From an uncultured Mucilaginibacter sp. (lineage in GTDB: Bacteria; Bacteroidota; Bacteroidia; Sphingobacteriales; Sphingobacteriaceae), in contig CAISPD010000056.1 in the NCBI GenBank assembly GCA_903887275.1, positions 1-36,341 of the forward strand: a stretch of DNA of 36,341 nucleotides, written 5' to 3'. The translations under genes and the position numbers were made by a program. Numbering within the stretch: the first letter of the stretch is position 1; each line of letters starts with the position of its first letter. The notes beneath the pieces are model-generated. The model made no database searches, had not been told where the DNA came from, and saw nothing but the letters and a program-made list of their open reading frames with translations. Below are positions 13,493 to 31,938 of the stretch, piece after piece.

Positions 13493-13551
13493 TACGGATA
13501 TAGTTGTCCGGAACAATATTTCCGGGTTGTTTTTTCACAAGACACTAAAGC

Positions 13552-16500
13552 ATGATCGCTAATACGTTTATAAAAAGACCGGTTACAGCAATTGTGATCT
13601 CGATAGTACTGGTGATCACCGGTGTGATTTGTATTTTCAATTTACCGGTTGACCAGTACCCTGACATTACCCCGCCTATAGTACAGGTTAACGGGCAATT
13701 TACGGGCGCTGATGCGCAAACCGTAGAGCAAACCGTTGCCACCCCGGTTGAGCAGCAGGTAAACGGTACTCCAGGAATGGAATACATGCAAAGCAACAGC
13801 ACCAATAACGGGCTGATGACCATGAACGTAACGTTTAAGGTTGGTACCAATATTGATGTTGCCGCGCTCGACGTACAAAACCGGGTAAGTATTGCCACTC
13901 CACTTTTACCGGCTGTTGTAAGTCGGCTTGGGCTGACCGTAAGGGCATTGAATCCCAGCATGTTAATGATGGTGGCGATCTATTCGCCAAAAGGCAGCCA
14001 TAAGATCACTTTTCTCGACAACTTTACCAATATCTTTATTCAGGATGCCTTATTGCGGGTGCCGGGCGTAGGCAGTATCAACCGTTTTACGGATGATTTC
14101 AGCATGCGTATCTGGATGAACCCGGAAAAAATGGCTGCCTATAAACTTACACCTGCTGATGTGATCAGTGCCCTAAACTCCCAAAATGTGCAGGTTGCGG
14201 CGGGAACAGCAGGCGTGCCTCCCCAGGCATCTAACCAAACCTATGAACTTGGCATCCTGGTTAACGGCCGTTTAAGTAAAGTATCCGAATTTGAAAATAT
14301 CGTTGTAAAAAGCGTACCCACAACCCGCGAGTTGGTTTATCTGAAAGATGTTGCCCGGGTTGAGCTGGGAAAATTTACGTTCTCCAGCAATTCATTTGTC
14401 GATGGCAAAAGGGCGTCGTACCTGCAAATTTATCAGGCACCGGGAAGTAATGCGCTCGAGACAGCCAAAGGTGTTTACGCAGCACTGGCTAAACTAAAAC
14501 AGACTTTCCCGGCCGATGTGGAATATAGTGTACCCTTTGAATCGGTAACGGTAGTTAAAGTTTCCATGAGCGATGTGGTAGGAACGCTATTGAAAACCCT
14601 GGCATTGGTTGCCGTAGTAGTTTTGTTATTCCTCCAGAATTTAAGGTCGACATTGATACCGGTATTAGCCATACCCGTTTCTATTTTTGGCACCTTTTGT
14701 TTCTTTATCCCGCTGGGCTTTACCATCAATACGCTTACCATGTTTGGCTTTGTGCTTGCTATAGGTATTGTTGTTGATGATGCTATCATTGTGGTAGAAG
14801 CAGTACAACATTATATCGACGAAAAAGGTATGTCGCCGAAGGAAGCTACCTATATGGCCATGCGCGATATATCGGCGCCGGTAATTGCCATTGCGTTGAT
14901 CCTGGCAGCAGTTTTTGTTCCCGTTGGATTTATTCCGGGTATTGTGGGGCGTTTATACCAGCAGTTTGCGATTACTATTGCGATTTCTGTGATGATTTCT
15001 GCATTTATAGCCCTTTCGCTGACGCCAGCATTGTGTACGCTTCTGCTTAAACCAAGTACCATCAACAAAGAAGCAAAGGGATTGGATAAACTGTTCTTCC
15101 GTTTCAACAAATGGTTCGACAAGATAACCGAGCACTATACCGAAGGTGTGCGCCGATCAATCAAAGCATCAAAATTTATTATTATTCTATTGGTTTGTAT
15201 TTGCGCCGGGGCCTATTTCCTTTTTCAGCAAAAACCCTCGGGCTTTATACCGTCTGAAGACGACGGCAACCTGTATGTTACCTATCAGCTGCCTCCGGCA
15301 TCTTCTACTGCACAGTCGGTTGAGATCATGAACAAGCTGATGAAAGTTGTAGGATCTACGCCAGGTGTGGCACATTTTGCAGCATTATCAGGCCTCAACG
15401 TGGTTACTAATGCTTCCAACTCTAATAACGGAACCATTTATTGCCAGCTGGCACCCTGGGACGACCGCAACAATGAAAATGAACAGGTGCCGGGCATTAT
15501 CAGTGTGTTGCAGAAAAGGATTGCTGATGCCGGCATAAAAAACGCCAACGTAGAGGTGATCCAACCATCGCCGCTACCGGGTATAGGCGCTACCGTTGGC
15601 TTTAGTTTACAGCTTGAACAACGGAGTACCAACGATGATGTACATGCTTTTGAAAATGTAGTTGACCGCTTTATTGCCGAAGCCAATAAAAACCCGGCAA
15701 TTACCAATGCGTTCAGCTTTTATTCGGCTCATACGCCCAATTACAACCTGACTGTCGACAGGGATAAATGTGAAAAGCTCGGCATCAATGTATCTGATGT
15801 GTTTACCACGATACAAGCCTATATGGGCAGTTTGTACATCAACGATTTTACTACCTATAACCGCACTTTTCACGTAGTGGTGCAGGCAGATACCGCCTAC
15901 CGGAAGCTGATTTCTGATATGGATAAATATTATGTTCGAAATCAGGCAGGCAATATGGTTCCACTGGGTACCGTCATCAGTTACAAACCTACGGAGGCTG
16001 CGCCATTGATATCGCATTTTAATATTTTCCGTTCGGCAGAGATCGACGGCATATCGAAGCCCGGGCATAGTAATACCGAGGCGATAGATAGCCTTAAAGC
16101 CGTTGCTGCAAGGGTATTGCCACAGGGATACACCTATGAATTCTCGGGTTTAAGTTTTGAGGAGATCAATGCAGGTTCTACAACCATATACATTTTCCTG
16201 TTTTCCATCGCTTTTGTGTTCCTGTTTCTGGCAGCATTGTATGAAAGCTGGTCGGTACCATTTTCGGTGCTATTTGCGGTTCCGGTTGGCGCCTTTGGTG
16301 CGATATTGGGATTAGCACTGTTGCCTAAACTGACAGATAATGTTTATGCACAGATAGGCCTGGTAACACTGATCGGGCTGGCAGCAAAGAACGCCATCCT
16401 TATCGTGGAGTTTGCCAAGATCAGGGTGGATCGCGGTGAGGATCTGTTACAATCTACGTTGGATGCCGTAAAACTACGCCTGCGCCCCATTGTAATGACC

Positions 16501-16806
16501 TCGCTCGCCTTTATACTCGGTGTATTGCCATTGGTATTTGCTTCGGGTGCCGGTGCTGTAGCACGCCAAACCATTGGCATCACGGTGCTTGGAGGTATGC
16601 TTGCGGCTTCAACCCTCGCCATCTTTATTGTACCGGTTCTTTTTGTGCTCATCACTAAACTAAGTTATGGCAAAGCCAAACTGGATGATCTGAAAAAGCA
16701 CCATCTTGAACTGATGGAAAAAGCCCAAAAGGTTGAGCAGCAAAACATTGACCCTGAATTGGAATTTGAAATAGAAAAGTCGCGCCAGCTTAATAATCTA
16801 GCATAG
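13552..16806 (+). CDS. RND efflux permease (HAE1/AcrB type), pump 1
   Basis: MIANTFIKRPVTAIVIS, DQYPDITPP, FGFVLAIGIVVDDAIIVVEAV, IGLAAKNAILIVEFAK, Phe/Gly-rich TM segments. Confidence 0.95.
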   Translation: MIANTFIKRPVTAIVISIVLVITGVICIFNLPVDQYPDITPPIVQVNGQFTGADAQTVEQTVATPVEQQVNGTPGMEYMQSNSTNNGLMTMNVTFKVGTNIDVAALDVQNRVSIATPLLPAVVSRLGLTVRALNPSMLMMVAIYSPKGSHKITFLDNFTNIFIQDALLRVPGVGSINRFTDDFSMRIWMNPEKMAAYKLTPADVISALNSQNVQVAAGTAGVPPQASNQTYELGILVNGRLSKVSEFENIVVKSVPTTRELVYLKDVARVELGKFTFSSNSFVDGKRASYLQIYQAPGSNALETAKGVYAALAKLKQTFPADVEYSVPFESVTVVKVSMSDVVGTLLKTLALVAVVVLLFLQNLRSTLIPVLAIPVSIFGTFCFFIPLGFTINTLTMFGFVLAIGIVVDDAIIVVEAVQHYIDEKGMSPKEATYMAMRDISAPVIAIALILAAVFVPVGFIPGIVGRLYQQFAITIAISVMISAFIALSLTPALCTLLLKPSTINKEAKGLDKLFFRFNKWFDKITEHYTEGVRRSIKASKFIIILLVCICAGAYFLFQQKPSGFIPSEDDGNLYVTYQLPPASSTAQSVEIMNKLMKVVGSTPGVAHFAALSGLNVVTNASNSNNGTIYCQLAPWDDRNNENEQVPGIISVLQKRIADAGIKNANVEVIQPSPLPGIGATVGFSLQLEQRSTNDDVHAFENVVDRFIAEANKNPAITNAFSFYSAHTPNYNLTVDRDKCEKLGINVSDVFTTIQAYMGSLYINDFTTYNRTFHVVVQADTAYRKLISDMDKYYVRNQAGNMVPLGTVISYKPTEAAPLISHFNIFRSAEIDGISKPGHSNTEAIDSLKAVAARVLPQGYTYEFSGLSFEEINAGSTTIYIFLFSIAFVFLFLAALYESWSVPFSVLFAVPVGAFGAILGLALLPKLTDNVYAQIGLVTLIGLAAKNAILIVEFAKIRVDRGEDLLQSTLDAVKLRLRPIVMTSLAFILGVLPLVFASGAGAVARQTIGITVLGGMLAASTLAIFIVPVLFVLITKLSYGKAKLDDLKKHHLELMEKAQKVEQQNIDPELEFEIEKSRQLNNLA

Positions 16807-16808
16807 GG

Positions 16809-19800
16809 ATGATTGCCAATACTTTCATAAAAAGGCCGGTAACAGCTATCGTTATATCACTTGTTCTGGTATTGTCGGGATTGATTTGCATGTTTAACCT
16901 GGCGGTAGATCAATACCCTAATATATCGCCACCAAGTGTTTCCATCAACGGCTCTTACACCGGTGCGGATGCTGAAACTGTTGAACAAACCGTAGCCACC
17001 CCTATTGAAGAGCAGGTAAATGGCACACCCGGAATGGAGTATATGCAAAGCACAAGCACCAATAGCGGAGGTGTGGGCATCCGGGTAACTTTTAATATTG
17101 GCACCAATGTACATATCGCTGCACTTAATGTGCAAAACAGGGTAAGTATTGCTGCGCCAATATTACCTGCAGTTGTAAGTAAACTTGGTTTAAGTGTAAG
17201 GGCCAGCAATCCCGATCAATTGATGCTGGTGTCCATCTACTCGCCAAAAGGAACACATGATATTACCTTTCTGGATAACTATACCAATACTTTTATACTC
17301 GATGCACTATTGCGTGTACCTGGTGTAGGTGATGCCGGTGCCTGGAGCGATAATTTCAGTATGCGTATCTGGATGAATCCCGAAAAAATGGCTTCTTACA
17401 GCCTTACCCCATCGGAGGTGATCAGTGCGCTAAGTTCACAAAACGTATATGTAGCGGCCGGATCAGTTGGCGCACCGCCACAGGCTTCGAACCAGACCTA
17501 TGAAACCGGTATATTAGTAAATGGGATGCTGAATAAGGCAGGCGATTATGAAAAGATGATCGTTAAAACGATACCAAACACAGGTAAGATCGTATATCTG
17601 AAGGACGTGGCCAGGGTTGAATTAGGTAAGTTTTCCTATTCAAGCAATAGTTTTGTTGACGGACATAGCTGCTCAACGATCAGAATATTTCAGTCGCCCG
17701 GCAGCAATGCCTTACAGACCGCCGAAAACATTTATAAAGAACTGGCCAAACTCAAAAAATCATTCCCATCCGACGTTGACTACCTGATACCTTTTGAGTC
17801 GATCACGATCATTAAAGTTTCGATGAAAGAAGTTATCGGTACACTGCTCAAGGCATTGGCACTGGTAGCTATTGTGGTATTCCTTTTCCTCCAAAACTGG
17901 CGCTCTACCATCATTCCCATACTGGCTATACCAGTTTCTATACTTGGCACCTTCTGCCTGTTTATCCCTTTAGGGTTTACCATCACTACGCTTACCATGT
18001 TTGGTTTTGTATTGGCCATTGGTATTGTAGTTGATGACGCCATTATTGTGGTTGAAGCGGTTCAACATTATATAGACGATAAGCACATGTCGGCCAAAGA
18101 GGCTACCTATCATGCCATGAAAGAAATTTCGGCACCTGTGGTAGCCATTGCGCTCATACTGGCTTCAGTATTTGTACCGGTAGGATTTATACCTGGAATT
18201 GTGGGCCGGTTATACCAGCAGTTTGCGATAACTATTGCCATATCTGTTATTATTTCGGCATTTGTAGCCTTGTCACTCACGCCTGCGCTGTGTACGTTAC
18301 TACTTAAACCAAGTCATCATGAAAGTAAAAACTTTAAATGGCTCGATTGGTTTTTTGAACACTTTAACCGCATTTTCGAAAAGCTTACACACCGGTATAC
18401 CAATGGTGTACAAAAAAGTATTAAAGGTGCCCGATATATTATTATCCTGCTGATCTGCATATGCATTGGCACTTACGGCTTGTTCAGGATCAAACCTTCA
18501 GGATTTGTACCGAATGAAGATGGTGGTCGCCTTTTTGTTACCTACCAGTTACCCGATGCAACATCAACAACGCAGTCGGTTACTCTGCTAAAAAAACTGA
18601 TGAAAATTGTAGATGCCACACCCGGTGTTGCGCACTTTGCAGCTTCCTCGGGTTTTAACATCCTTAACGGTGGGGCCAATTCAAACGCAGGTTCGATGTT
18701 TTTAATGTTAAAACCCTGGGATGAACGCACAAGCAAGGAAACAAAAATTGAAGGGCTGGCAGCCGCTCTGAAGTTGCGTTTTGCCAAAGCCGGCATAAAA
18801 AATGCCAATATCGTAGTTATACAGCCTCCACCTATTCGCGGGATAGGACTGGCGGCCGGTTATAGTGCCCAAATTGAAGAAGGTAATTCTACCGATGACA
18901 TTCATGCTTTTGAAAAAGCTGTGCACAAATTTGTAGCAGCAGCACAGAAAATACCAGCAACGTCGACAGCATTCAGCTATTATTCGGCACATACGCCGAG
19001 TTATGATTTGACTGTTGACCGGGAAAAATGCCAGAAACTGGGTGTGAATATCGGCGATGTTTTTTCTACCATGCAGGCCTATATGGGCAGCATGTTCGTT
19101 AATAATTTTACGCTATATCGCAGAACATACCATGTTGTGGCACAAGCCGACACCAATTTCCGTGCATTGATCTCAAATATGGACAAGTACTATGTCCGCA
19201 ACCAGGCAGGCCAGATGCTGCCTCTAAGTACGCTTATTCACTATAAACCAACTGCCGCAGCACCGCTGATCACACACTTCAATATATTCCGCTCGGCTGA
19301 AGTTGATGGTGCTATACCTGAGGGTTACAGCAGCGGGCAAAGTTTGGAAGCCTTAAGACAGGTAGCGGCTAAGGTATTGCCAAGGGGCTATACCATTGAG
19401 TTTTCGGGATTGAGTTATGAAGAGATAAAAGCGGGCTCAACAACCGTCTATATATTCATACTATCCATCACCTTTGTGTTCCTGTTCCTGGCTGCGCTTT
19501 ATGAAAGCTGGTCGGTCCCTTTTTCGGTAATGCTGGCCGTGCCGATCAGTGCATTTGGAGCAATCCTGGCGCTCTACATGATACCGCCACTTACCAACAA
19601 TGTTTATGCGCAGATCGGGTTGATCACCCTGATAGGGCTGTCGGCTAAAAATGCGATCCTGATCGTTGAATTTGCAAAGATACGTGTTGACAGAGGCGAA
19701 GAATTGATCAAGTCGACACTGGAGGCAGTCAAGTTGCGCCTGCGGCCTATTATCATGACCTCTATGGCCTTTATTCTGGGTGTGTTACCACTATGCCTTG

Positions 19801-20108
19801 CAACCGGTGCCGGTGCAGCGTCGAGGAATACCATAGGCGTTACGGTACTTGGTGGTATGATCGCATCGGTATCCCTGTCGATATTTATAGTGCCTGTTTT
19901 GTTTGTGCTTTTAACCCGGTTTTCCTATGGTAAAAAGAAACTGAACTGGCTGCGCGAAAACCACGAATTGTTGATGGAAAAAGCCCGTAAAGTTGAATTG
20001 CAAAACATCGATCCAGAACTGGAATATGATATAGCCCAGGCCAAAGCATGGCATGAGGCGGAACGGGAAAATTCAGATATAAAAACCGGAGACAGCCCCT
20101 CTCTGTAA
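16809..20108 (+). CDS. RND efflux permease (HAE1/AcrB type), pump 2
   Basis: Paralog of the upstream ORF with the same N-terminus and TM motifs; starts 2 nt after the upstream stop. Confidence 0.95.
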   Translation: MIANTFIKRPVTAIVISLVLVLSGLICMFNLAVDQYPNISPPSVSINGSYTGADAETVEQTVATPIEEQVNGTPGMEYMQSTSTNSGGVGIRVTFNIGTNVHIAALNVQNRVSIAAPILPAVVSKLGLSVRASNPDQLMLVSIYSPKGTHDITFLDNYTNTFILDALLRVPGVGDAGAWSDNFSMRIWMNPEKMASYSLTPSEVISALSSQNVYVAAGSVGAPPQASNQTYETGILVNGMLNKAGDYEKMIVKTIPNTGKIVYLKDVARVELGKFSYSSNSFVDGHSCSTIRIFQSPGSNALQTAENIYKELAKLKKSFPSDVDYLIPFESITIIKVSMKEVIGTLLKALALVAIVVFLFLQNWRSTIIPILAIPVSILGTFCLFIPLGFTITTLTMFGFVLAIGIVVDDAIIVVEAVQHYIDDKHMSAKEATYHAMKEISAPVVAIALILASVFVPVGFIPGIVGRLYQQFAITIAISVIISAFVALSLTPALCTLLLKPSHHESKNFKWLDWFFEHFNRIFEKLTHRYTNGVQKSIKGARYIIILLICICIGTYGLFRIKPSGFVPNEDGGRLFVTYQLPDATSTTQSVTLLKKLMKIVDATPGVAHFAASSGFNILNGGANSNAGSMFLMLKPWDERTSKETKIEGLAAALKLRFAKAGIKNANIVVIQPPPIRGIGLAAGYSAQIEEGNSTDDIHAFEKAVHKFVAAAQKIPATSTAFSYYSAHTPSYDLTVDREKCQKLGVNIGDVFSTMQAYMGSMFVNNFTLYRRTYHVVAQADTNFRALISNMDKYYVRNQAGQMLPLSTLIHYKPTAAAPLITHFNIFRSAEVDGAIPEGYSSGQSLEALRQVAAKVLPRGYTIEFSGLSYEEIKAGSTTVYIFILSITFVFLFLAALYESWSVPFSVMLAVPISAFGAILALYMIPPLTNNVYAQIGLITLIGLSAKNAILIVEFAKIRVDRGEELIKSTLEAVKLRLRPIIMTSMAFILGVLPLCLATGAGAASRNTIGVTVLGGMIASVSLSIFIVPVLFVLLTRFSYGKKKLNWLRENHELLMEKARKVELQNIDPELEYDIAQAKAWHEAERENSDIKTGDSPSL

Positions 20109-22374: not shown

Positions 22375-22818
22375 ATGAAAAAACTTATCACCCTTTCTAT
22401 CGTAGTATTAAGCTCAGTAGTAGCATTTGCACAAACTACTCCAACCACAACAAAAAAAGACGCAAAAGCTGACATTGCAAAAGCAAAAGCTGACCTGGCA
22501 TCGCAGAAAAAAGATGTTGCTTCAGACAAAGCTGATATTAAAACCGACAAGGCAAATTTAAAAACTGACAAAGCTACTTTGGCATCGGCTAAAACTACTT
22601 TAGCTACAGCTAAAACAGATAAAGATTCCAAATCAGTAATACCTGCTGATAAAGCTGCAGTGCAAACTGCAAAGGCTACTGTAAAAACTGATAAAGCTGA
22701 TATCAAATCTGATAAGGCTGATGTAACTACAGACAAAGCTGATATAAAAGCCATGAAATCGGATATCAAAGAAATGAAAAAGAGTAACGGCTCTCATCAC
22801 GGTAGTCACAAGCATTAA
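22375..22818 (+). CDS. Secreted Lys/Ala/Asp-rich heptad-repeat protein with His-rich C-terminus
   Basis: Signal peptide MKKLITLSIVVLSSVVAFAQ; repeats such as DKADIKTDKANLKTDKATL, DKADIKSDKADVTTDKADIK; tail SHHGSHKH. Confidence 0.8.
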   Translation: MKKLITLSIVVLSSVVAFAQTTPTTTKKDAKADIAKAKADLASQKKDVASDKADIKTDKANLKTDKATLASAKTTLATAKTDKDSKSVIPADKAAVQTAKATVKTDKADIKSDKADVTTDKADIKAMKSDIKEMKKSNGSHHGSHKH

Positions 22819-22879
22819 TAAAAATATCTCCAATTGCTGGTGCTAAGAAAGAGATAAATTTATCCCATTCAGCATTAGT

Positions 22880-22917
22880 TAAACAATAATAGCCAGTTAT
22901 CTGGCTGTTATTGTTTA
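22880..22917. terminator. 17-bp-stem hairpin downstream of the heptad-repeat gene
   Basis: TAAACAATAATAGCCAG-TTAT-CTGGCTGTTATTGTTTA, one mismatch (G-U possible). Confidence 0.6.
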
Positions 22918-23041
22918 GTGGGCAAGTAACTTAATACTGATTGTTATATTTTTACCCAAAAGGCTAGTAAAAATACAAGATCCTCTTTCGAACTTATCCA
23001 AATTCACTCTATACTAATAGTCACCCAACCATTATTGATCA

Positions 23042-23935
23042 ATGAACAAAAAAATTTACTTCTCCTCAATATTGCTTTTCCTTTTATTGTGCAGCCGGTT
23101 TGCATTTTCCCAAACAACTGCAATAGATACCCTGGGGGATTTTAAAAGCATTAAAAAAGCGTCGTTAAAAGTTGGTTTAAATTATTTAAACAATTCAGTT
23201 TACCTAGGGCGAGCAGACACCGTGAATACTCCCCTCATCGAGCCAAACTTGAAATATACATTTGCAAATGGCATCTATTTTTCGGGCAATGTGCAAATAG
23301 TACCAAACCGAAAAACAAATAAATTGGATGGAGGAAGTATCAGTGCCGGATATGATTACGATATCGGTAATAATTGTAGTGGGAGCCTTTCATTTACTCA
23401 ATTGTTTTATAGTGCTACCAGTACGCAAATAGGCTCTTCTATTGGAAGTACGATCAATGCGAATATTGATTATGATATCAGCGACGTGATAACCCCATCA
23501 CTTAGTATCGATTATAATATATTAAAACAAGGGTTCGGCAGTGATGTGATGGTCAATTTTGGCATCTCGCATGACTTTGCTCAGGAAAGCATATTTGCCG
23601 GCGACGACATTGGCCTGATCTCGCCAACTGCAACGGTTAATGCCGGAACCCAGAACTTTTATTCCGCGTTTTTAACGCTGAAAAAATACAAATTACCCAA
23701 AGCCGGCAAAGCCCAAAAACTATTATCAGCCCAAGATGCCAAACTGGCCAAATTTCAATTACTGGATTTCGAATTTGCTGCTCCTATCGAATACAAAACA
23801 GGTCCAGTACTTTTTAGTTTTACGCCAACCTATGCCTTTGCAGAAAATAAGCTTCCGGCCAGTATCACTAAAGGGATGGTTTCGACACAAAGCGGCCTCT
23901 TCTTTTTTGAAATTGGAGCTTCGGTCAAATTTTGA
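23042..23935 (+). CDS. Secreted protein, probable outer-membrane beta-barrel, unknown function
   Basis: Signal peptide MNKKIYFSSILLFLLLCSRFAFSQ; alternating aromatic/polar strands; terminal Phe (GASVKF). Confidence 0.65.
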   Translation: MNKKIYFSSILLFLLLCSRFAFSQTTAIDTLGDFKSIKKASLKVGLNYLNNSVYLGRADTVNTPLIEPNLKYTFANGIYFSGNVQIVPNRKTNKLDGGSISAGYDYDIGNNCSGSLSFTQLFYSATSTQIGSSIGSTINANIDYDISDVITPSLSIDYNILKQGFGSDVMVNFGISHDFAQESIFAGDDIGLISPTATVNAGTQNFYSAFLTLKKYKLPKAGKAQKLLSAQDAKLAKFQLLDFEFAAPIEYKTGPVLFSFTPTYAFAENKLPASITKGMVSTQSGLFFFEIGASVKF

Positions 23936-23973: not shown

Positions 23974-24183
23974 CTATTCAGTCCTGGTTTTTCTTGTTGT
24001 GATTTTAAACGGATAATACAATGGACAAAAGCTTACAAAGCTGGTTAAAATAAATATTGCAGCGAAGACCAGTAAAATTATTGCAAGCGTACCGGAAATA
24101 ATATTTGCATAAAATAATACAGCAATTGTTATGGCGACCAGAACCCGCAGTGCCCGGTCTATTGTTCCCATGTTCTTTTTCAT
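23974..24183 (-). CDS. DUF2892 / YgaP-like small membrane protein
   Basis: Two hydrophobic helices, MGTIDRALRVLVAI start, FCPLYYPF motif. Confidence 0.75.
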   Translation of the reverse strand: MKKNMGTIDRALRVLVAITIAVLFYANIISGTLAIILLVFAAIFILTSFVSFCPLYYPFKITTRKTRTE

Positions 24184-24265
24184 CTTTTTAATTTTTTGTT
24201 AAAGATAAAAAGCACGACAGGCTGGGATGGTTACAAATGTTACAATAGCGTTGCAGGGTGGTTTT

Positions 24266-24904
24266 TCAGCACATATCAAAATCATTCAGCAGCTTGATTT
24301 CATTCCGATAAAGAACAATTTTCCCGTCATTCTCCAGTTGTTTGAGTAAACGCGAAATCACAACTCTGGAAGTTGCCAATTCATCAGCGATCAAATAATG
24401 TGAAGCCCGAATTACACTTGAGCCTGAGAGCCGCTGCTTTTCCTTAAGATAAGCAATTAAACGGTCGTCTAACTTATGGAATGCAATACTTTCAATTGAT
24501 TTCAATAGTTCAAGAAAACGTAGGTTAAAGCTGCGCATGATATAATTTTTCCAACCCGGATACTTGCAAAGCCATTCATCCAGTTTGGTATGCGGTATTG
24601 CGATCAAATCAACATCTTCTTCTGCAATTGCCTTCACTTCGCTTTTTTTTGCTTCCAGACAGCAACTATAGGCCATAGAACAACTCTCGTTGCTTGAAAG
24701 GTAATATAAAAGGATCTCTTTACCGGTTTCGTCCTTCTTTAGAACCTTTAGTGTGCCATTGATCACCATAGGCATCATATGGATATACTTACCATAATCC
24801 ATAATAATATCGCCTTCTTTGAAGTGCTTCAATGTTCCAAATTCGTTTATTTCCCGAAGCAAACCGGGTTCAAATATGGCTTCAAAATAACCAGTATTAT
24901 CCAT
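24266..24904 (-). CDS. Crp/Fnr-family transcriptional regulator
   Basis: cNMP-binding-like beta-roll (GDIIMDYGKYIHMMPMVINGTLKVLKKDETGKEILLYYL) and C-terminal HTH (ASHYLIADELATSRVVISRLLKQLENDGKIVLYRNEIKLL). Confidence 0.88.
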   Translation of the reverse strand: MDNTGYFEAIFEPGLLREINEFGTLKHFKEGDIIMDYGKYIHMMPMVINGTLKVLKKDETGKEILLYYLSSNESCSMAYSCCLEAKKSEVKAIAEEDVDLIAIPHTKLDEWLCKYPGWKNYIMRSFNLRFLELLKSIESIAFHKLDDRLIAYLKEKQRLSGSSVIRASHYLIADELATSRVVISRLLKQLENDGKIVLYRNEIKLLNDFDMC

Positions 24905-24944
24905 AGCGCTAATTTAGCAGAAATTACCTGCTATAAGTCTTGCG

Positions 24945-25256
24945 TTATTTAACGTACTTTTTAACACTGGTCCATGTGCCGCCATTAACTACATTATTAA
25001 AGCCATTTTGCTTAAGAATAGATTTGGCTTGCCAACTCCTGCCCCCGCTTTGACAAAAGACCACAATATTACTTTTATGCTCGAATTTCGACAGCTGGTT
25101 TACTATTTCCGCTACCGGTATGTTTACCGAGCCTTTAATATGGCCACCGGCAAATTCTTCCCGGGTGCGAACATCAACTAAAAAAGCTCCTTCACTAATA
25201 ATGGTTTGCAGGTCGGGCGATGTGCTTCCGCCGAACAATTGCTTGAAAATATTCAT
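24945..25256 (-). CDS. Single-domain rhodanese (sulfurtransferase)
   Basis: FLVDVRTREEFAGGHIKGSVNIPV, active-site loop CQSGGRSW. Start at 25256 preferred over 25325: 4-nt overlap with the DUF983 stop and a typical N-terminus. Confidence 0.9.
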   Translation of the reverse strand: MNIFKQLFGGSTSPDLQTIISEGAFLVDVRTREEFAGGHIKGSVNIPVAEIVNQLSKFEHKSNIVVFCQSGGRSWQAKSILKQNGFNNVVNGGTWTSVKKYVK

Positions 25257-25681
25257 GTTGTTGGATGATTTTTTTGATAGTTTTCGGCTGCGTCGGGCAC
25301 ATAATGCAGGCCCGGTGTTAACCAATGCATTAATAATATTCGCGAATACCGGTAATTAAATGGTGCCAGTAAACTAACAACGCTTAGCATAATGCCCAGG
25401 TAAAGCCAGGGGTTTTCGCTGCCGGAAAGAATGTAGGTGCCAACGGCAAGCGTTACAAGTTCGGCGACTATAAAGGCATAGCCAACGTACATTGCTGCAT
25501 AAAAATAGCCCGGCTCCCTTTCATATAACATACCGCACCTGGGGCAATTTTTCAATATCTTTTGCCCCTTAAAGCTATATGCCGGATTAGCAAAGACCTT
25601 GCCTTCACGGCATTTTGGACACCTTGCATTTACAATAGCTGGCCAGATTCTTAAATTCTTTTGTTCTGATTTCTTTATCAT
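25253..25681 (-). CDS. DUF983 membrane protein with CPxC zinc-ribbon-like motifs
   Basis: RCPKCREGKVF, NCPRCGMLYEREPGYFYAAMYVGYAF, followed by TM helices. Confidence 0.85.
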   Translation of the reverse strand: MIKKSEQKNLRIWPAIVNARCPKCREGKVFANPAYSFKGQKILKNCPRCGMLYEREPGYFYAAMYVGYAFIVAELVTLAVGTYILSGSENPWLYLGIMLSVVSLLAPFNYRYSRILLMHWLTPGLHYVPDAAENYQKNHPTT

Positions 25682-25864
25682 TTACTTCATCTTAAAATAG
25701 ACTAATATTTTTTCGAGCGGGCAGAATTTTGTTATTGATGATTGAAATAAATTGAAACCTACAAAAACAGCCAGCCATAACCAGTTGATATTTACAAAAT
25801 GAGCTAATGTTACGCTGGTAAGGACAAAAATCCCTGCAACAGCCCGTACAACACGTTCTTTCAT
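25682..25864 (-). CDS. DUF2892 / YgaP-like small membrane protein
   Basis: ERVVRAVAGIFVLTSV, second helix, SSITKFCPLEKIL. Confidence 0.8.
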   Translation of the reverse strand: MKERVVRAVAGIFVLTSVTLAHFVNINWLWLAVFVGFNLFQSSITKFCPLEKILVYFKMK

Positions 25865-25875
25865 GATTTTTTTAT

Positions 25876-26181
25876 TCAGATTGATTTTTCGACATCCAAT
25901 ACAAAGGCCCTGGCAGGAAAACTTCCACCTAAGCTTTTGTTATAATTCATAATAAGTTCCGCACCCAGTGTTGCTTTTTCCTGACTGGTAAAGGTGAAGA
26001 TCATGACCGAGTCGGCCTGTTCATCGCCACTGGCAAACCAGTCTGCAAGCATATTTTGATTATTTCCGTTCCTGTGTCCTATGATATTGCTTGTACTGAA
26101 CACATCAATTTCAGCTTGCTTGAATATTTTGCTGATATCGCCCAGAAATTCATTTAAACAGGTAACTATTAATAGTTTCAT
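25876..26181 (-). CDS. Small PII-like / ferredoxin-fold regulatory protein adjacent to the RND pump
   Basis: MKLLIVTCLNEFLGDISKIFKQAEIDVFSTSNIIGHRNG resembles the PII/CutA-like beta-alpha-beta start; 2-nt gap to the RND gene. Confidence 0.55.
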   Translation of the reverse strand: MKLLIVTCLNEFLGDISKIFKQAEIDVFSTSNIIGHRNGNNQNMLADWFASGDEQADSVMIFTFTSQEKATLGAELIMNYNKSLGGSFPARAFVLDVEKSI

Positions 26182-26183
26182 AT

Positions 26184-29100
26184 TCAGGATTCTAATGGTT
26201 TAACATCATTTTTACGCATCATCTTGAAATATAACAGGGGTACTACGATCAAGGTCAAAAATGTTGAAGTTATTGTGCCGCCCATCAGAGAAATTGCGAG
26301 CCCCTGAAAAATTGGATCGAATAGTATGATCACAGCTCCTAAAGCAACGGCCCCTGCAGTCAACAAAATAGGGGTTGTGCGAACCGCACCCGCTTCAATA
26401 ATAGCCTGCTTCAAGTGGATCCCTTCATTTAGCCGGATATTTACAAAGTCGATCAACAATATCGAATTACGGACCATAACTCCGGCCAACGCTATAAACC
26501 CGATCATAGAAGTTGCTGTGAAATAAGCATGCAATAACCAATGCCCCAAAATGATCCCGATTAGTGATAATGGTATGGCGGCAAGCATGATCAACGGTAC
26601 CGTAAAATTCTGGAACCAGCCAACGATTAGGATATAGATCAGAATAATAACTACTGCGAACGCAATGCCGAGGTCGCGAAAGACCTCGAAAGTGATCTGC
26701 CATTCTCCATCCCATTTTAAACTGTAATTGTCTTCAAATTCTGGCTGATGAGTATATTCTTCTTTTAATGAGAATCCCTTTGGCACTTTTAAGGTATTTA
26801 AATGATCTGAGACATCCGAAATGGCATAAGAGGGACTCTCCAGGTTTCCGGCCATATCACCGATCACATAAACAACTTCCTTTTGATTTTTGCGATAAAT
26901 ACTTTTGGCTTTTATTTGTCTGGTCACCGTTACCAGATCTCGTATGGGCACAACATTCCCTTGCATGCCAATAACCTTTACGTCGAGAATGTCGTTGATA
27001 TCTGTCTTACTGTCATCGCTGAGTTGCAACTTAATTGCCGTTTGGCTATACGAAGCCGGCTCCGAGATATTGCCCGATATCATCCCCCGCAAGGCAGCAT
27101 TAACTGTCGCAGCGATCTGGGCTGTGACCACACCATAATGCATAGCCTTTTCTTTGTTCACTTCAAGGTGGTATTCTGGCTGGTCTGCCGCAACCATCCA
27201 ATCAACATCAACTACATTTGAAGTTCTATCCAATAGGCCTTTTACCTGATCAGCAACTTTTATTTGTTCATTATAGTTTGGACCATATATTTCGGCAACT
27301 AAAGTTGATAATACAGGAGGCCCGGGTGGCACTTCTACGATTTTCACATTAGCATTATACCTTTTGGCGATAGCCTGAATTGGCTCCCGCATTTGCTTTG
27401 CTATCGCATGACTCTGAATATTTCGGTCATTTTTATCAACCAGATTCACATGTATATCGGCCACATTTTCGCCTCTGCGCAAGTCATAGTGTCTTACCAA
27501 TCCATTGAAACTGATTGGGGCTGAAGTACCAATATAGGTTTCGTAATTTTTAACCAGTGATTGGCCGGAAACACAAGCAGCAATATCTTTGGCTGCCGCC
27601 TGTGTCGCCTCAAGTGTGGTACCTGCGGGCATATCTATCACCACTTGAAATTCATTTTTATTATCAAAAGGCAGCATTTTTACGGCAACCGCTTTGGTAT
27701 AAAACATAGATAGCGAAGCAAAAAGAATAACAACGGTACTTAAAATAAATGTCCACCGTTTCCAGCGGGTTTCCAATAAGGGCTGAATGAAAGAGCGGTA
27801 AATCTTATAAATTCGCGTTTCTTCGAGTTTCAGCGAATGATGCTCCTCTTCGGATTTTACAGGTTTTTCTTTTTCACGCAGGAAGATAAATCCCAAATAA
27901 GGTGTGAGCGTTAAGGCAACAATTAACGATAATATCATCGCTATGGATGCACCAATTGGCATCGGGCTCATATACGGGCCCATCATTCCGGAAACAAAGG
28001 CCATAGGTAAAACCGCGGCAATGACCGTAAATGTTGCCAATATGGTTGGATTACCTACTTCATTGATGGCATATATGGCCGCCTGTAGCGGCGGCAATTT
28101 TTTCATTTTAAAATGCCGGTGCATATTCTCGGCGATGATGATCGAATCGTCAACAACAATACCTGTTATAAATACCAACGCGAACAGCGTGATCCTGTTC
28201 AGTGTATAATGCATAAAATAATAAGCAAACAAGGTAAGAGCAAACGTTACCGGCACTGATAAAAACACCACCAATCCTCCCCTCCAGCCCATTGCCAGCA
28301 TTACAAATACCGTAACTACTACGATAGCTATGAATAGGTGGAACAATAATTCAGATACTTTATCCGATGCAGTTTCTCCGTAATTTCTGGTTACCGTCAG
28401 GTGCACATCGTTGGGCAACAGATCTTTTTTTAGATATTCAACTTTATTCAGAATAAGTTCAGATAATTTCATCGCATCTGCACCCTTCTTTTTAGCAATG
28501 GAAAGTGTTATAGCCGGATAGTTTGATTTAAAGTTTCCAGCATCTTTCAGATTAGCCTTGCCGTATCCAAATAGCACATATTGGCTGGGACTCTCGGCTC
28601 CTTCTTCCACTTTTGCTATTTGCTTCAGATACACTGGCTGCTGCTGATTAACTCCTACAACCAGATTGGCCACATCCTCTGACGAGTTTAGAAAATTACC
28701 GGTAGTTACTGAAAAAGCTGTATCTTTTTGCAAAAGGTTGCCACCGGGTAATTGCATATTGCTTCCTTGTATCTGCTTACTTAGTGATAAAAAATCAATA
28801 TGGTTTTCAGCCATTTTGCTTTTATCCAGCACAATTTTTATTTCACGATCCCGGCCGCCAATAATTTTTATATCAGAAACATCATTGATCTTTTTGATCT
28901 CATTATCCAGTTCCTGCCCTATTTGCTTTAACTGGTAGTCATCGTATTTATCGCTCCACAAAGTCAGACCCAATACCGGAACATCGTCTATCGCCCTGGT
29001 TTTTATGAGCGGTAGCGTGATGCCCTGGGGCATTTTATCCATATTCTTCATTAATTCGCTATATAATTTTACAAGCGAGCGTTCTACATCTTCGCCAACA

Positions 29101-29402
29101 TAAAACTGAACAATGACCATGGCCTGTCCCTGCATCGAAGTGGAATAAACATATTCGACGCCCTTTACATTGGAAATCATTTTTTCAATAGGTGCAGCCA
29201 CTTTAGTTTCTACATCTTTGGGCGAAGCGCCTGGATAACCTATAAATATATCAGCCATCGGAACCTGTATTTGCGGTTCTTCTTCCCTGGGTATCAAAAA
29301 AGTACTGTATCCGCCTATCAGCAAAAAGGCGAGCATCAGCAATATTGTAAGTTTCGACTGTAAAAATGCCTGGGCAATGTTGCCTGCAAATCCGTTCTTC
29401 AT
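26184..29402 (-). CDS. RND efflux permease (AcrB superfamily; island pump)
   Basis: FLIPREEEPQIQVPMADIFIGYPGASPKDVE, ALVFITGIVVDDSIIIAENMHRH, IGFIALAGVMVRNSILLIDFV. Confidence 0.93.
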   Translation of the reverse strand: MKNGFAGNIAQAFLQSKLTILLMLAFLLIGGYSTFLIPREEEPQIQVPMADIFIGYPGASPKDVETKVAAPIEKMISNVKGVEYVYSTSMQGQAMVIVQFYVGEDVERSLVKLYSELMKNMDKMPQGITLPLIKTRAIDDVPVLGLTLWSDKYDDYQLKQIGQELDNEIKKINDVSDIKIIGGRDREIKIVLDKSKMAENHIDFLSLSKQIQGSNMQLPGGNLLQKDTAFSVTTGNFLNSSEDVANLVVGVNQQQPVYLKQIAKVEEGAESPSQYVLFGYGKANLKDAGNFKSNYPAITLSIAKKKGADAMKLSELILNKVEYLKKDLLPNDVHLTVTRNYGETASDKVSELLFHLFIAIVVVTVFVMLAMGWRGGLVVFLSVPVTFALTLFAYYFMHYTLNRITLFALVFITGIVVDDSIIIAENMHRHFKMKKLPPLQAAIYAINEVGNPTILATFTVIAAVLPMAFVSGMMGPYMSPMPIGASIAMILSLIVALTLTPYLGFIFLREKEKPVKSEEEHHSLKLEETRIYKIYRSFIQPLLETRWKRWTFILSTVVILFASLSMFYTKAVAVKMLPFDNKNEFQVVIDMPAGTTLEATQAAAKDIAACVSGQSLVKNYETYIGTSAPISFNGLVRHYDLRRGENVADIHVNLVDKNDRNIQSHAIAKQMREPIQAIAKRYNANVKIVEVPPGPPVLSTLVAEIYGPNYNEQIKVADQVKGLLDRTSNVVDVDWMVAADQPEYHLEVNKEKAMHYGVVTAQIAATVNAALRGMISGNISEPASYSQTAIKLQLSDDSKTDINDILDVKVIGMQGNVVPIRDLVTVTRQIKAKSIYRKNQKEVVYVIGDMAGNLESPSYAISDVSDHLNTLKVPKGFSLKEEYTHQPEFEDNYSLKWDGEWQITFEVFRDLGIAFAVVIILIYILIVGWFQNFTVPLIMLAAIPLSLIGIILGHWLLHAYFTATSMIGFIALAGVMVRNSILLIDFVNIRLNEGIHLKQAIIEAGAVRTTPILLTAGAVALGAVIILFDPIFQGLAISLMGGTITSTFLTLIVVPLLYFKMMRKNDVKPLES

Positions 29403-29406
29403 CTTT

Positions 29407-30522
29407 TTATCTGTTAATTTTTACAGCTGCACCGTTAAATAGCCTGCCATCCGCACTTACAATAAATTGCTCGTGCGGGGCAAGGCCGCTAAGCACTTCC
29501 ACCTGGTTTCCCTTCACTTTCCCTAGCCTCACCCAGCGAAGCAGTGCAGTATTATTATTTCCAATGGTATAAATGCCCGTAAGTTGACCTTTTTGTTCGA
29601 TAGCCTTCAACGGTACCATTACCTGATCTACATCCTGATTATTGATTGTTGATTGCTTAGCCGGAATCGATAAATTGGCATACATTCCAGCAAATAAGCC
29701 GGCTTTGTCTTTGTCCGATATAATTACTTTGATCAGGTATTGTCCTCCGCTAAACTGCGAGGATTGATTAATTTGACTAACCTTACCGTTGATCATTTTA
29801 TGAGCAGCATCAATAGCGATAGTCACGTTAGCACCCTCCTTTACCTGGCTGATCAAACTTTCCGGCACCGTAGCGCTAACCTGATAGTTGCCGTTTTGTT
29901 CAACAGTCAGAATTGGCATACCCGGATTTGCCATGCTCCCCGCATCCATTAATTTTTGGGTGACTACCCCATCAAATGGAGCCAGTAAATTGGTATAGCC
30001 AAGCGTTGCATTGATCTCGTTTTTCATCTGTTTAGCTTGTTCTAACCTTGACTTTGCCGAACTATATTGCTGGGTAATATTCTCCAGCTCTTTTGCCGAG
30101 GCACTTTGTTGTTTATACAATACCGTAAATCGGCCAAAGTCTTCTTGTGCGTTTTTCAATGCTACTTCAGCTTCTGAAATCATTGCATCTGTTTGTGCCC
30201 GTTTTGCTAGAATGTCATTATTACTTATAGTAGCCAATAATGAGCCTTTTGCAACGTGATCGCCGACCTTTACCTTAATCGCGGTAATGTAACCCATTAC
30301 CCTGGTGCTGATATTGGCAGTTTGGGCTGATTCTATCTGGCCGCTCACATTCAAAGCCTGTTGCTGATCAGTAGCCGGAGTAGTGATGGTTACTGCTATA
30401 GCTGTATCAATAGTTGAAGGCTTGTCACTTTTTATATTTGAAGAACAGGCACTTAGTGAAAGCAGTCCTATACTGGCAATTGCTTTAAAAGTTCTGAAAG
30501 TAGCATTAATGGCTGTACTCAT
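29407..30522 (-). CDS. RND periplasmic adaptor (MFP), predicted lipoprotein
   Basis: Lipobox LLSLSACSS; ANISTRVMGYITAIKVKVGDHVAKGSLLATI; LLAPFDGVVTQKLMDAGSMANPG. Confidence 0.9.
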   Translation of the reverse strand: MSTAINATFRTFKAIASIGLLSLSACSSNIKSDKPSTIDTAIAVTITTPATDQQQALNVSGQIESAQTANISTRVMGYITAIKVKVGDHVAKGSLLATISNNDILAKRAQTDAMISEAEVALKNAQEDFGRFTVLYKQQSASAKELENITQQYSSAKSRLEQAKQMKNEINATLGYTNLLAPFDGVVTQKLMDAGSMANPGMPILTVEQNGNYQVSATVPESLISQVKEGANVTIAIDAAHKMINGKVSQINQSSQFSGGQYLIKVIISDKDKAGLFAGMYANLSIPAKQSTINNQDVDQVMVPLKAIEQKGQLTGIYTIGNNNTALLRWVRLGKVKGNQVEVLSGLAPHEQFIVSADGRLFNGAAVKINR

Positions 30523-30532
30523 TTTTATGGAA

Positions 30533-31876
30533 TTATTTGTTAGTGGTGGCGGTTAAGAATTGCAAGTAAAACCGGGTTAAATTCATGGTAAAGTTGGCCT
30601 GGGCCAGCGCAAATTTTTGTTGTAGCAGCTGTGATTGCGCCATCAATACATCAGTGGTGTTAATTAAGCCTTGCTGATAGCGGTTTTGCAGTATCCGAAG
30701 CGATTCATCGGCCTGTTCAATAGCTGCTTTGTGTTGCTTTATTTCAAAACTTGCATCCGAGAGGTCATTAATAGCTTTATTGAATTCTAACTGGCTCTGC
30801 TCACGTTGCAGTGCCAATTGTTCGCCCAATTTGTCGCGTTCAAGTTTCTGAATGGTAATGGTATTTTTAGTTTTGTTTCCTTTAAATATATCCCAGGATA
30901 ATTGCACACCGACCAGATATGAATTTGCACCGAAACCTGTTAAGCGGCTATCATTATATTGGTAGTTCCCAAAAGCATTAAGCCGTGGCAGGAAACTCAT
31001 CTGGCTTGATCTGATCATCATATATGATGCGTCAATCGCTTTTTGAATAGCCATAAAATCCGAACGTTTTGAACCAATACTTTGCACGGAGTCGTTGATC
31101 TTCCTGATCGACTCAAAAGCCGGATCGATACGATATAATGTTCCGCTTTTTACTCCCATCAGTAAACTCAGGTAGTCGCAGGCATCCCGTACGTTCCTTT
31201 TCGCTTTGTTCAAATTAGTTTCAACCATATTTAATTGTACCTGAGCGTTCAATAGGTCAGACTTTTGAATCAGGCCCTGCTGAAAATGATTGTTGGTATA
31301 GACATAAACAGCATTTGTAGTTGCCAATGCGTCTTCCAAAACGTTAACTGCATTGTTGGCCAATTTCAATTGCAAAAAGGCTTTCTGCACCTCAAATGTT
31401 AGATACTCTATTGTCCGTTGGGTTTTGTACTGATATACTTCAGCTTCTATTTGGGCTGCTTTTCTCATATACAGCATGTCCATATTCAGGATCGGTTGTT
31501 GTATTTCCAGCTTGGTCATAAAGTCGACTGTACCGGTGGGATGGTTCAATAGCCCCGGAACAAAATCATTTTGAGTGATCGATCTTTGTTCTAATTTATA
31601 ACCAAAGGCATTTAATGGGTCATTTGTGCCCATTCCAGTTACAGAAAATCCCACCTGCGGGAGAAAGGCTGCCTCGGTTTTTTTATAATTGGCTAAGGCT
31701 ATTTTTTCGTCCATTTTTGCCAAACGGATGTTCCTATTGCTGGCCAGCGTTGCTTCAATAGCCTCGTTCAAGGTTAAATTTTTAGTGCTGTCCTGTGCAA
31801 GGCATCTTACACTAAATGCACTTATCGAGAAAATTACTAACAGACCTTTTAAAATAAGATAGCGTTGGAAATTCAT
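30533..31876 (-). CDS. TolC-family outer membrane efflux protein
   Basis: Signal peptide; LTLNEAIEATLASNRNIRLAKMDEKIALANYKKTEAAFLPQVG; C-terminal QQGLINTTDVLMAQSQLLQQ. Confidence 0.9.
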   Translation of the reverse strand: MNFQRYLILKGLLVIFSISAFSVRCLAQDSTKNLTLNEAIEATLASNRNIRLAKMDEKIALANYKKTEAAFLPQVGFSVTGMGTNDPLNAFGYKLEQRSITQNDFVPGLLNHPTGTVDFMTKLEIQQPILNMDMLYMRKAAQIEAEVYQYKTQRTIEYLTFEVQKAFLQLKLANNAVNVLEDALATTNAVYVYTNNHFQQGLIQKSDLLNAQVQLNMVETNLNKAKRNVRDACDYLSLLMGVKSGTLYRIDPAFESIRKINDSVQSIGSKRSDFMAIQKAIDASYMMIRSSQMSFLPRLNAFGNYQYNDSRLTGFGANSYLVGVQLSWDIFKGNKTKNTITIQKLERDKLGEQLALQREQSQLEFNKAINDLSDASFEIKQHKAAIEQADESLRILQNRYQQGLINTTDVLMAQSQLLQQKFALAQANFTMNLTRFYLQFLTATTNK

Positions 31877-31893: not shown

Positions 31894-31901
31894 CAAAACT
31901 A
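31894..31901 (-). promoter_or_regulatory. Candidate -7 element (TAGTTTTG on minus strand) for the island efflux operon
   Basis: Matches TAnnTTTG upstream of the TolC start at 31876; no consensus -33, with the palindrome there instead. Confidence 0.5.
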
Positions 31902-31922: not shown

Positions 31923-31938
31923 GGTAACATATGTTACC
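31923..31938. promoter_or_regulatory. Perfect 16-bp palindrome, candidate Crp/Fnr operator
   Basis: GGTAACATATGTTACC, about 47-62 bp upstream of the TolC start codon. Confidence 0.65.

Follow-up and report, generated by a model that had tools for sequence, protein, structure and literature searches.

Gene organization and promoter elements

The operon lies in a window of 36,341 nucleotides from an uncultured Mucilaginibacter sp., the window being the whole stretch of DNA that was analysed. Nine genes, all on the minus strand, occupy positions 23974–31876 in the order given by the original prediction (Table 1). They are closely spaced, as had been claimed, with gaps of 10 nt between TolC and MFP, 4 nt between MFP and RND, 2 nt between RND and PII, 11 nt between PII and DUF2892, 0 nt between DUF2892 and DUF983, 40 nt between rhodanese and Crp, and 82 nt between Crp and the last DUF2892 gene. 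Of the 4-nt overlaps that were also mentioned, a single one is real, the ATGA at the DUF983–rhodanese junction. Furthermore, a separate promoter and operator precede the last DUF2892 gene, which thus may form a transcript of its own within the same regulon.

Table 1. Genes and promoter elements of the locus
Feature	Position	Strand	Basis
Perfect palindrome operator GTAACATATGTTAC, upstream of operon	31924..31937	-	conserved before TolC in clade loci
Bacteroidota -7 box TAGTTTTG (TAnnTTTG), ends 17 nt before TolC start	31894..31901	-	sequence and spacing
TolC-family outer membrane channel	30533..31876	-	Pfam OEP 1.9e-50
Periplasmic adaptor (MFP, RND_mfp family)	29407..30522	-	HlyD_D23 1.3e-19; TIGR01730 192 bits, over cut-off
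RND permease, taken as reference for the clade	26184..29402	-	Pfam ACR_tran 5.6e-166
PII-fold protein	25876..26181	-	AlphaFold2 model and Foldseek
Short DUF2892/YgaP-like membrane protein, conserved core	25682..25864	-	Pfam YgaP-like_TM 7.2e-13
DUF983 membrane protein, two CxxC pairs	25253..25681	-	Pfam 5.9e-5
Single-domain rhodanese, 103 aa, ATG at 25256	24945..25256	-	Pfam Rhodanese 2e-17
Crp/Fnr regulator	24266..24904	-	Pfam HTH_Crp_2 and cNMP_binding
Second operator GTAACATTTGTAAC, before last gene	24230..24243	-	match and spacing
-7-like box TATCTTTA of last gene, 16 nt before start codon	24200..24207	-	spacing
Second, longer DUF2892/YgaP-like membrane protein	23974..24183	-	Pfam 2.2e-21

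The TolC–MFP–RND–PII order was found again in 45 of 46 loci with a PII-like gene, a DUF2892 gene follows immediately downstream in 39 of 48 loci (about 0.02 expected), and one locus (L089) reads TolC–MFP–RND–DUF2892–DUF983–rhodanese–Crp. Given this recurrence, the arrangement is far beyond chance, and an artefact or chance gene order was rejected.

Cysteines are conserved in several of the smaller proteins. Cys48 of the short DUF2892 protein is kept in 99% of 102 homologues, Cys53 of the longer one is conserved, and all four cysteines of the DUF983 protein are present in 6/6 homologues. The rhodanese has the active-site loop CQSGGR, a CX4R-type loop with the catalytic cysteine; Cys68 occurs in 24/24 homologues and Arg73 in 95%. 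The two YgaP domains are separate open reading frames in the window, with no rhodanese–PF11127 fusion.

At both operators, 29 nt separate the operator centre from the start of the -7 or -7-like box. The exact match to GTAACANNTGTTAC is the single one in the 3.9 Mb host genome; one-mismatch sites elsewhere in this genome were at chance level (12 versus 17 for the reversed pattern) and were set aside. When the region was scanned for sigma-70 promoters, shuffled sequences scored more matches than the real one, as expected of a scan that excludes Bacteroidota -7/-33 promoters. With at most one mismatch, the operator precedes 39 of 112 clade operons at a spacing of 29–30 nt, compared with 0.9% of random windows, and about half of the clade loci have no close operator match.

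The permease clade and the PII-fold protein

The RND permease falls below every curated NCBIfam RND subfamily cut-off and thus received no subfamily name in the NCBIfam scan; CusA/CzcA membership was rejected, with 261.5 bits for TIGR00914 against a cut-off of 701. Its TM4 carries the motif VDDS(I)..EN, and its closest solved structures are the drug pumps MexK, TriC-like and CmeB. The clade forms one side of a branch with tree support of 100/100 and spans eight or more phyla. Among the Bacteroidota sampled (46 genomes), clade RNDs are 54–100% identical to the window's permease, whereas no other RND encoded there exceeds 28%.

In Bacteroidota, the PII-fold protein and then a DUF2892 protein are encoded downstream of the clade RND. 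A DUF2892 gene lies within 3 kb of 38 of 47 clade RNDs and of none of 100 control RNDs (p = 6e-27); the corresponding counts are 13/47 versus 2/100 for rhodanese (within 10 kb) and 8/47 versus 0/100 for SQR (within 20 kb). Homologues from Chlorobi, Cyanobacteria and Pseudomonadota adjoin SQR, rhodanese, DUF2892 or persulfide-dioxygenase-like genes or SqrR/BigR-type repressors, and ArsR, YeeE and MBL genes are also found next to non-Bacteroidota homologues. A neighbouring FAD protein of Paracoccus matches human SQR (~4e-61), and a protein at locus L009 matches Aquifex SQR (3e-40). In two neighbouring ArsR proteins, which cluster with HlyU, SqrR, BigR and YgaV, both RSS-sensing positions are occupied by cysteine. 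Clade-like RNDs of Flammeovirga (L084) and Alloyangia (L172) have no sulfur neighbours among the annotated genes; the association between clade and sulfur genes is thus strong, but not universal. No SQR was detectable in the host genome in searches with different SQR types, so that sulfane sulfur must arise elsewhere, for example from cysteine catabolism.

The neighbourhood is conserved across Bacteroidota and beyond, so that the original prediction withstands one of the refutations it had named, a neighbourhood found nowhere else. The prediction is supported in part: sensing or removal of a sulfur species by the module is backed by this conserved neighbourhood, by the SQR, rhodanese, persulfide-dioxygenase-like, TauE, YeeE and SulP partners and by the operator shared with a sulfur regulon. 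Nothing pointed specifically to the metal-thiol or electrophile substrates that it also listed, and the permease is far below the CusA/CzcA cut-off. As judged from sequence comparison, the permease clade is a distinct, widely conserved RND family that moves with sulfide and sulfane-sulfur detoxification genes.

The name PII-like had been given to the fourth gene product, and its sequence score is not significant: the Pfam P-II score of 13.6 bits is under the cut-off of 25, the PROSITE signatures PS00496 and PS00638 occur in 0 of 104 homologues, and a sequence search for solved PII relatives returned no match. Nevertheless, the fold confirms the name. The AlphaFold2 model (pLDDT 86.9) has the beta-alpha-beta-beta-alpha-beta fold with a T-loop, and Foldseek gave 148 matches at E<=0.001, of which the 50 listed are all PII or PII-like; PII, GlnK, SbtB and PotN head the listed PDB matches. 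According to this model, the protein belongs to the PII fold. A near-invariant tryptophan, Trp48, lies inside the disordered T-loop. The gene is mostly absent from clade loci outside Bacteroidota, and its product had no plasmid match.

PII-NG proteins linked to RND pumps are known (PMC7726332), and the window protein shares with them the linkage to an RND pump, at 45 of 46 loci, and the lack of PII signatures. The operon might accordingly serve metal or metal-sulfide efflux, with a PII-NG-type metal sensor and a pump for metal ions or for metal-sulfide complexes formed under sulfide stress. PII-NG in Geobacter is linked to CzcABC and responds to cobalt (PMC7726332), metal-sulfide export has been suggested for the sulfide-induced Azospira RNDs (PMC5358917), and the adaptor scores on CzcB. 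We regard this reading as unlikely, however, because the metal-type (CzcA/CusA) partner pump of PII-NG is not found here (261.5 against 701 bits), the VDDS motif is HAE-type, the closest solved relatives are drug pumps, and it is sulfur enzymes that recur in the neighbourhood, where neither copper nor cobalt genes were prominent.

The Crp/Fnr protein and the regulon

Across 396 Bacteroidota genomes, the combination of promoter and operator stands mostly ahead of sulfur genes and the RND operon. The operator pattern gave 86 sites in 43 genomes, compared with 7 for the reversed pattern, and these lie mostly ahead of sulfur and thiol genes. Persulfide dioxygenase, SQR, rhodanese and TauE genes have the operator in common; OsmC-type peroxiredoxin, Trx, TrxB and DsbD are also members of the regulon, in which cytochrome bd recurs. 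The sites are often beside a Crp/Fnr gene with a C-x5-CC motif like that of the window, and 20 of 30 Crp genes are within 10 kb of an operator site, with 0.36 expected. The motif is present in 28 of 30 distinct Crp homologues; in the window protein it comprises Cys75, Cys81 and Cys82, at and in the phosphate-cassette helix (residues 76–84 in the AlphaFold2 model). A Bacteroidota-wide sulfur regulon is thus well supported, and the Crp/Fnr protein is the likely regulator of the module. No sulfane-sulfur sensor for Bacteroidota is described in the literature searched.

The thiol genes of the regulon also bear on whether the pump exports organic thiols, persulfides or electrophile–thiol conjugates (e.g. 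cysteine persulfide), which would leave the sulfur part to be cleared by the sulfur genes. Small organic molecules are typical RND cargo, and OsmC-type peroxiredoxin, Trx, TrxB and DsbD would fit such a role. However, the commonest partners (SQR, persulfide-dioxygenase-like, TauE, YeeE and SulP) act on inorganic sulfur and no thiol-conjugate enzymes recur, which makes such a pump quite improbable. Least probable of all is a nitrosative-stress operon under an HcpR2-type NO-sensing Crp/Fnr: the operator agrees with GTAACnnnnGTTAC, the predicted binding motif ahead of hcp for HcpR2 from Bacteroides and others (PMC1274295), hcp is downstream of two sites (L200 and L252) and the recurrent cytochrome bd tolerates both NO and sulfide, but the window operon has no hcp, the gene follows only 2 of 87 listed sites and is the only NO-detoxifying gene that turned up, and HcpR2 membership was rejected since both hcp-site genomes are without a window-like Crp (E<=1e-16) and sulfur genes dominate the C-x5-CC Crp regulon.

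Proposed mechanism and comparison with known systems

We consider it reasonably probable that the locus is a Crp/Fnr-controlled sulfane-sulfur stress operon, whose pump would export zero-valent sulfur or polysulfide with the PII trimer as its gate. The gene order, the clade, the sulfur partners, the operator with its regulon, the PII fold and the conserved cysteines form the basis of this reading. Against it weigh the lack of a detectable SQR in the host, the amphiphilic organic molecules that RND pumps usually transport, the unaltered H2S oxidation of the Azospira deletion (PMC5358917), the agreement of the operator with the predicted HcpR2 motif (PMC1274295), the clade loci with no close operator match and the scarcity of the PII-like gene beyond Bacteroidota. 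The operon would be directed at persulfide, polysulfide and zero-valent sulfur. The C-x5-CC cysteine triad of Crp/Fnr sits where a cyclic nucleotide would bind, and the protein most likely senses reactive sulfur via thiol modification; it would then activate from the GTAAC-N4-GTTAC site centred near -41.5, the position of a class II activator. Sulfane sulfur would be bound by the active-site cysteine of the rhodanese and may then pass, in a cysteine relay at the inner membrane, to the DUF2892 proteins, in each of which one cysteine is near-invariant. The clade pump probably expels reactive sulfur from the cell, and the MFP–RND–TolC assembly would in that case remove polysulfide or zero-valent sulfur located in the membrane or periplasm. 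RND pumps are not known to export sulfur. On the cytoplasmic side, the trimeric pump is probably bound by the PII-fold trimer, via the tryptophan-bearing T-loop of the latter. GlnK gates AmtB and SbtB gates SbtA; by analogy, the trimer would gate the pump on an energy or sulfur cue, a proposal of PII control over an RND pump.

More tentatively, a previously unrecognised RND family in eight or more phyla, including green sulfur bacteria, may carry polysulfide or zero-valent sulfur through both membranes and out of the cell, with PII-trimer gating in Bacteroidota and Chlorobi, a new C-x5-CC class of Crp/Fnr sensor in Bacteroidota and a source of globules in Chlorobiaceae. Chlorobaculum tepidum forms its extracellular sulfur globules 'by an unknown mechanism' (PMC12285230); if this extended proposal is true, the Chlorobiaceae version of the pump would feed them. 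One clade shared by Chlorobiaceae, Bacteroidota and Pseudomonadota offers a testable candidate for zero-valent sulfur export, and for Bacteroidota a sulfane-sulfur regulon and its sensor are predicted.

The original prediction knew of no defined pathway of this composition, a view tempered by RND–sulfur loci (PMC12423496; PMC5358917) and RND-linked PII-NG (PMC7726332). The proximity of RND pumps to sulfane-sulfur ArsR repressors was already noted in 2025 (PMC12423496), and the window operon is thus a variant of something already noted. In Azospira suillum, expression of an RND–MFP–SQR operon was high during H2S oxidation and transposon fitness data implicated the operon, although its deletion left the H2S oxidation rate unchanged (PMC5358917). 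At the Pseudomonadota SqrR/BigR/sHdrR ArsR loci (PMC12423496; Azospira Dsui_3440-3443, PMC5358917), DUF2892, rhodanese and SQR stand next to RND–MFP as here, and plasmid-borne Pseudomonadota loci (L087, L088, L169-L171 and L173) carry RNDs of the window's clade. Nevertheless, the regulator of the Pseudomonadota loci is of ArsR type instead of Crp/Fnr, TolC is often missing, and neither PII-like nor DUF983 genes were seen in them.

The Geobacter PII-NG/CzcABC locus (GSU2134-2137, PMC7726332) likewise joins a PII-fold protein without PROSITE PII signatures to a tripartite RND pump, but that pump is a CzcA-type metal exporter, whereas the window's stands with sulfur genes and falls in a non-HME clade of its own. 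E. coli YgaP, a rhodanese fused to PF11127, has the two domains that stand side by side in the window; the differences are the separate genes, the two DUF2892 paralogues and the tie to a pump. The HcpR2 regulon (PMC1274295) shares the operator consensus and the Crp/Fnr family with the window, which differs in its sulfur-gene targets, its C-x5-CC motif and a valine instead of proline at the specificity position (CRP Glu181). Finally, as in GlnK–AmtB and SbtB–SbtA, where a PII trimer is encoded with its transporter partner, the putative partner in the window, as suggested by gene adjacency, is the RND pump.

Operon architecture and the pump clade

Gene calls, Pfam matches and spacing bear out the nine-gene minus-strand operon in the order originally predicted: TolC, MFP, RND, PII-like, DUF2892, DUF983, rhodanese, Crp/Fnr and a last DUF2892. 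From TolC to rhodanese the intergenic distances range from a 4-nt overlap up to 11 nt; the rhodanese–Crp and Crp–last DUF2892 gaps are 40 and 82 nt, respectively. The rhodanese is of the catalytic type, with the active-site loop CQSGGR, and both DUF2892 proteins carry a single near-invariant Cys (99% of 102 and 9/9 sequences). The core order in Bacteroidota is TolC-MFP-RND-PII-DUF2892, and one compared locus (L089) has TolC-MFP-RND-DUF2892-DUF983-rhodanese-Crp. At another, L186, the operator is immediately followed by a DUF983-Crp pair, and no PII-like gene was detected in that genome; this points to DUF983 as part of the sulfur regulon rather than of the pump.

Coordinates of the operon, its operators and neighbouring genes in the window
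Feature	Position	Strand	Remarks
Pump operon	23974-31876	−	nine genes
Operator	31924-31937		perfect GTAACA-N2-TGTTAC match, the sole exact match in the genome
Second operator	24230-24243		one mismatch; precedes the last DUF2892 gene
Second, ordinary RND operon	10887-20108	+	TolC, HlyD adaptor, two tandem ACR_tran permeases (1084 and 1099 aa); MdtABC-like
Lys-rich repetitive secreted protein and outer-membrane-barrel-like protein	22375-23935	+	convergent with the operon end

Homologues of the Lys-rich and barrel-like proteins both adjoin an operator-preceded rhodanese gene at locus L195, and the barrel-like homologue also lies near two clade pump loci (L098 and L127).

Compared with PII-linked RNDs from 46 Bacteroidota genomes, the window permease (26184-29402) is 54-100% identical; with the other RNDs listed from the same genomes, identity is at most 28%. 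None of the curated RND subfamilies claims it. In a maximum-likelihood tree, a branch with 100/100 support sets apart 36 clade members, drawn from Bacteroidota, Chlorobiota, Calditrichota, KSB1, Acidobacteriota, Armatimonadota, Myxococcota, Geobacteraceae, Cyanobacteria and Pseudomonadota. One homologue family (f38) clusters in the tree with the RND of Chlorobaculum thiosulfatiphilum (79% identity); thus, green sulfur bacteria carry the clade pump. Arg978 of the window permease, an Arg in 94% of the clade, occupies what we take from motif comparison to be the position of the AcrB proton-relay Lys940.

The PII-like assignment failed by sequence (Pfam 13.6 bits, cut-off 25) and held by fold. The AlphaFold2 model (pLDDT 86.9) shows the PII topology, beta-alpha-beta-beta-alpha-beta, and a disordered T-loop; among the top PDB matches listed, its nearest neighbours are GlnK/PII, SbtB and PotN. 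Both PROSITE PII signatures are absent from all 104 homologues, 99% of which keep Trp48 in the T-loop; the gene was found in 80/396 genomes. In the Chlorobiaceae PII-like proteins examined, the T-loop contains an additional CxC motif.

Operator, regulator and regulon

Alignment of upstream regions yielded the palindrome GTAACA-N2-TGTTAC. Both window operators are centred exactly 29 nt upstream of a Bacteroidota -7 box, which places the centre near -41.5, the class II activator position. With at most one mismatch, the operator lies upstream of TolC at 39/112 clade loci versus 0.9% of random windows. The joint pattern (palindrome, 21-23 nt, TAnnTTTG) gave 15 matches in 60 relatives versus three for reversed controls, and within the genus it is present only in genomes holding the operon; 396 Bacteroidota genomes contain 86 sites, in 43 genomes, versus seven controls.

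Of the 37 genomes that encode a protein closely homologous to the window Crp/Fnr, 28 contain the pattern, versus 15 of the 359 others (kinship ignored); 20 of the 30 Crp genes of this type have a site within 10 kb (0.36 expected). These homologues have in common a near-invariant recognition helix, SR[VE]xxSR, and 28 of 30 distinct ones have C-x5-CC, whose cysteines map at and in the phosphate-binding-cassette helix of CRP.

Over both pattern searches, 87 downstream genes were listed, a labelled gene within 450 nt being taken over a nearer unlabelled one. They comprise 16 TolC-family genes (mostly the pump operon), 13 MBL/persulfide-dioxygenase-like, 11 rhodanese, eight TauE, four SulP, three Crp, three cytochrome bd, two YeeE, two SQR, one DUF2892 and one OsmC; the unlabelled rest includes two DsbD, thioredoxin, thioredoxin reductase, redoxin and two hcp. 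The Crp/Fnr group of the window type thus serves sulfur genes, and these data show or strongly support the sulfur regulon, the operator geometry and the Crp/Fnr partner. One genome has a 27-kb sulfur island (L250 and L251; G325 C1:2653000-2680000) that carries seven operator-promoter sites; TauE, MBL-rhodanese and SQR genes are among its members. At L191, L195 and L199, a family of membrane proteins of ~75-80 aa with the motif N(I/V)GCCG and no Pfam match precedes rhodanese under the same operator.

The sequence GTAACnnnnGTTAC was predicted in 2005 as the site of HcpR2, an hcp regulator with Pro at the position equivalent to CRP Glu181 (PMC1274295), whereas the window-type group mostly has Val. 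Both hcp genes with operator sites belong to genomes without a window-like Crp; the DNA motif is therefore common to at least two Crp/Fnr groups.

Sulfur neighbours and a possible mechanism

Control pumps from the same genomes served as the yardstick for neighbour counts in Bacteroidota. Of the clade RNDs, 38/47 have DUF2892 within 3 kb (versus 0/100 controls), 13/47 have rhodanese within 10 kb (versus 2/100; best-scoring 150 rhodaneses) and 8/47 have SQR within 20 kb (versus 0/100), kinship being ignored throughout; DUF2892 is immediately downstream in 39/48 loci (~0.02 expected). Cytochrome bd, MBL-fold proteins, YeeE/YedE, TauE, SulP and ArsR also recur. The original prediction was that the operon senses and removes a sulfur species, thiol, metal-thiol or related electrophile and that the pump exports the product; its sulfur part is supported by this genomic context and the regulon, beyond what the sequence alone could reveal. 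Metal operons are already known to encode PII proteins linked to RND pumps, termed PII-NG (PMC7726332). Efflux of metal or metal sulfide, export of organic thiols and a response to NO each fit the partner genes less well than sulfur does; as to what the pump carries, each may still apply.

For the sulfur system, Crp would sense sulfane sulfur through its cysteines, rhodanese and DUF2892 may pass sulfur on to the membrane, and the PII-like trimer could gate the trimeric pump. The pump's cargo would be sulfur in hydrophobic or polysulfide form; RND pumps load from membrane and periplasm and so suit such a cargo. No SQR is detectable in the host genome; thus, the sulfur here probably derives from cysteine or thiosulfate metabolism.

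Homologues and known systems

The original prediction required the gene neighbourhood to be conserved elsewhere, and clade RND with DUF2892, at some loci also with rhodanese or SQR, recurs across Bacteroidota and outside. Among the plasmid-borne homologues examined, DUF2892 with combinations of rhodanese, SQR and ArsR lies beside RND in Pseudanabaena, Paracoccus denitrificans, Sphingomonas, Azospirillum, Methylocella, Rhizobium (two strains) and Novosphingobium. DUF2892 is the sole sulfur-type neighbour in Vibrio, and Alloyangia and Flammeovirga (a Bacteroidota plasmid) have no such neighbours among annotated genes. Comparison with solved structures identified the FAD proteins tested as SQRs; two ArsR proteins have HlyU, SqrR, BigR and YgaV as their nearest relatives and retain Cys at both sensing positions. 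At five Chlorobiaceae loci (L080, L083, L151, L155 and L158) a persulfide-dioxygenase-like MBL gene lies downstream of the pump operon.

Under H2S-oxidising conditions, Azospira suillum strongly expresses an RND, SQR and MFP operon, which transposon fitness data implicate as well; a DUF2892 gene is up about tenfold. H2S oxidation was nevertheless no slower once the SQR operon had been deleted (PMC5358917). For the surroundings of sulfane-sulfur ArsR repressors, a 2025 survey lists RND pumps among the nearby genes (PMC12423496). Both sets of published data agree with a sulfur-linked pump neighbourhood.
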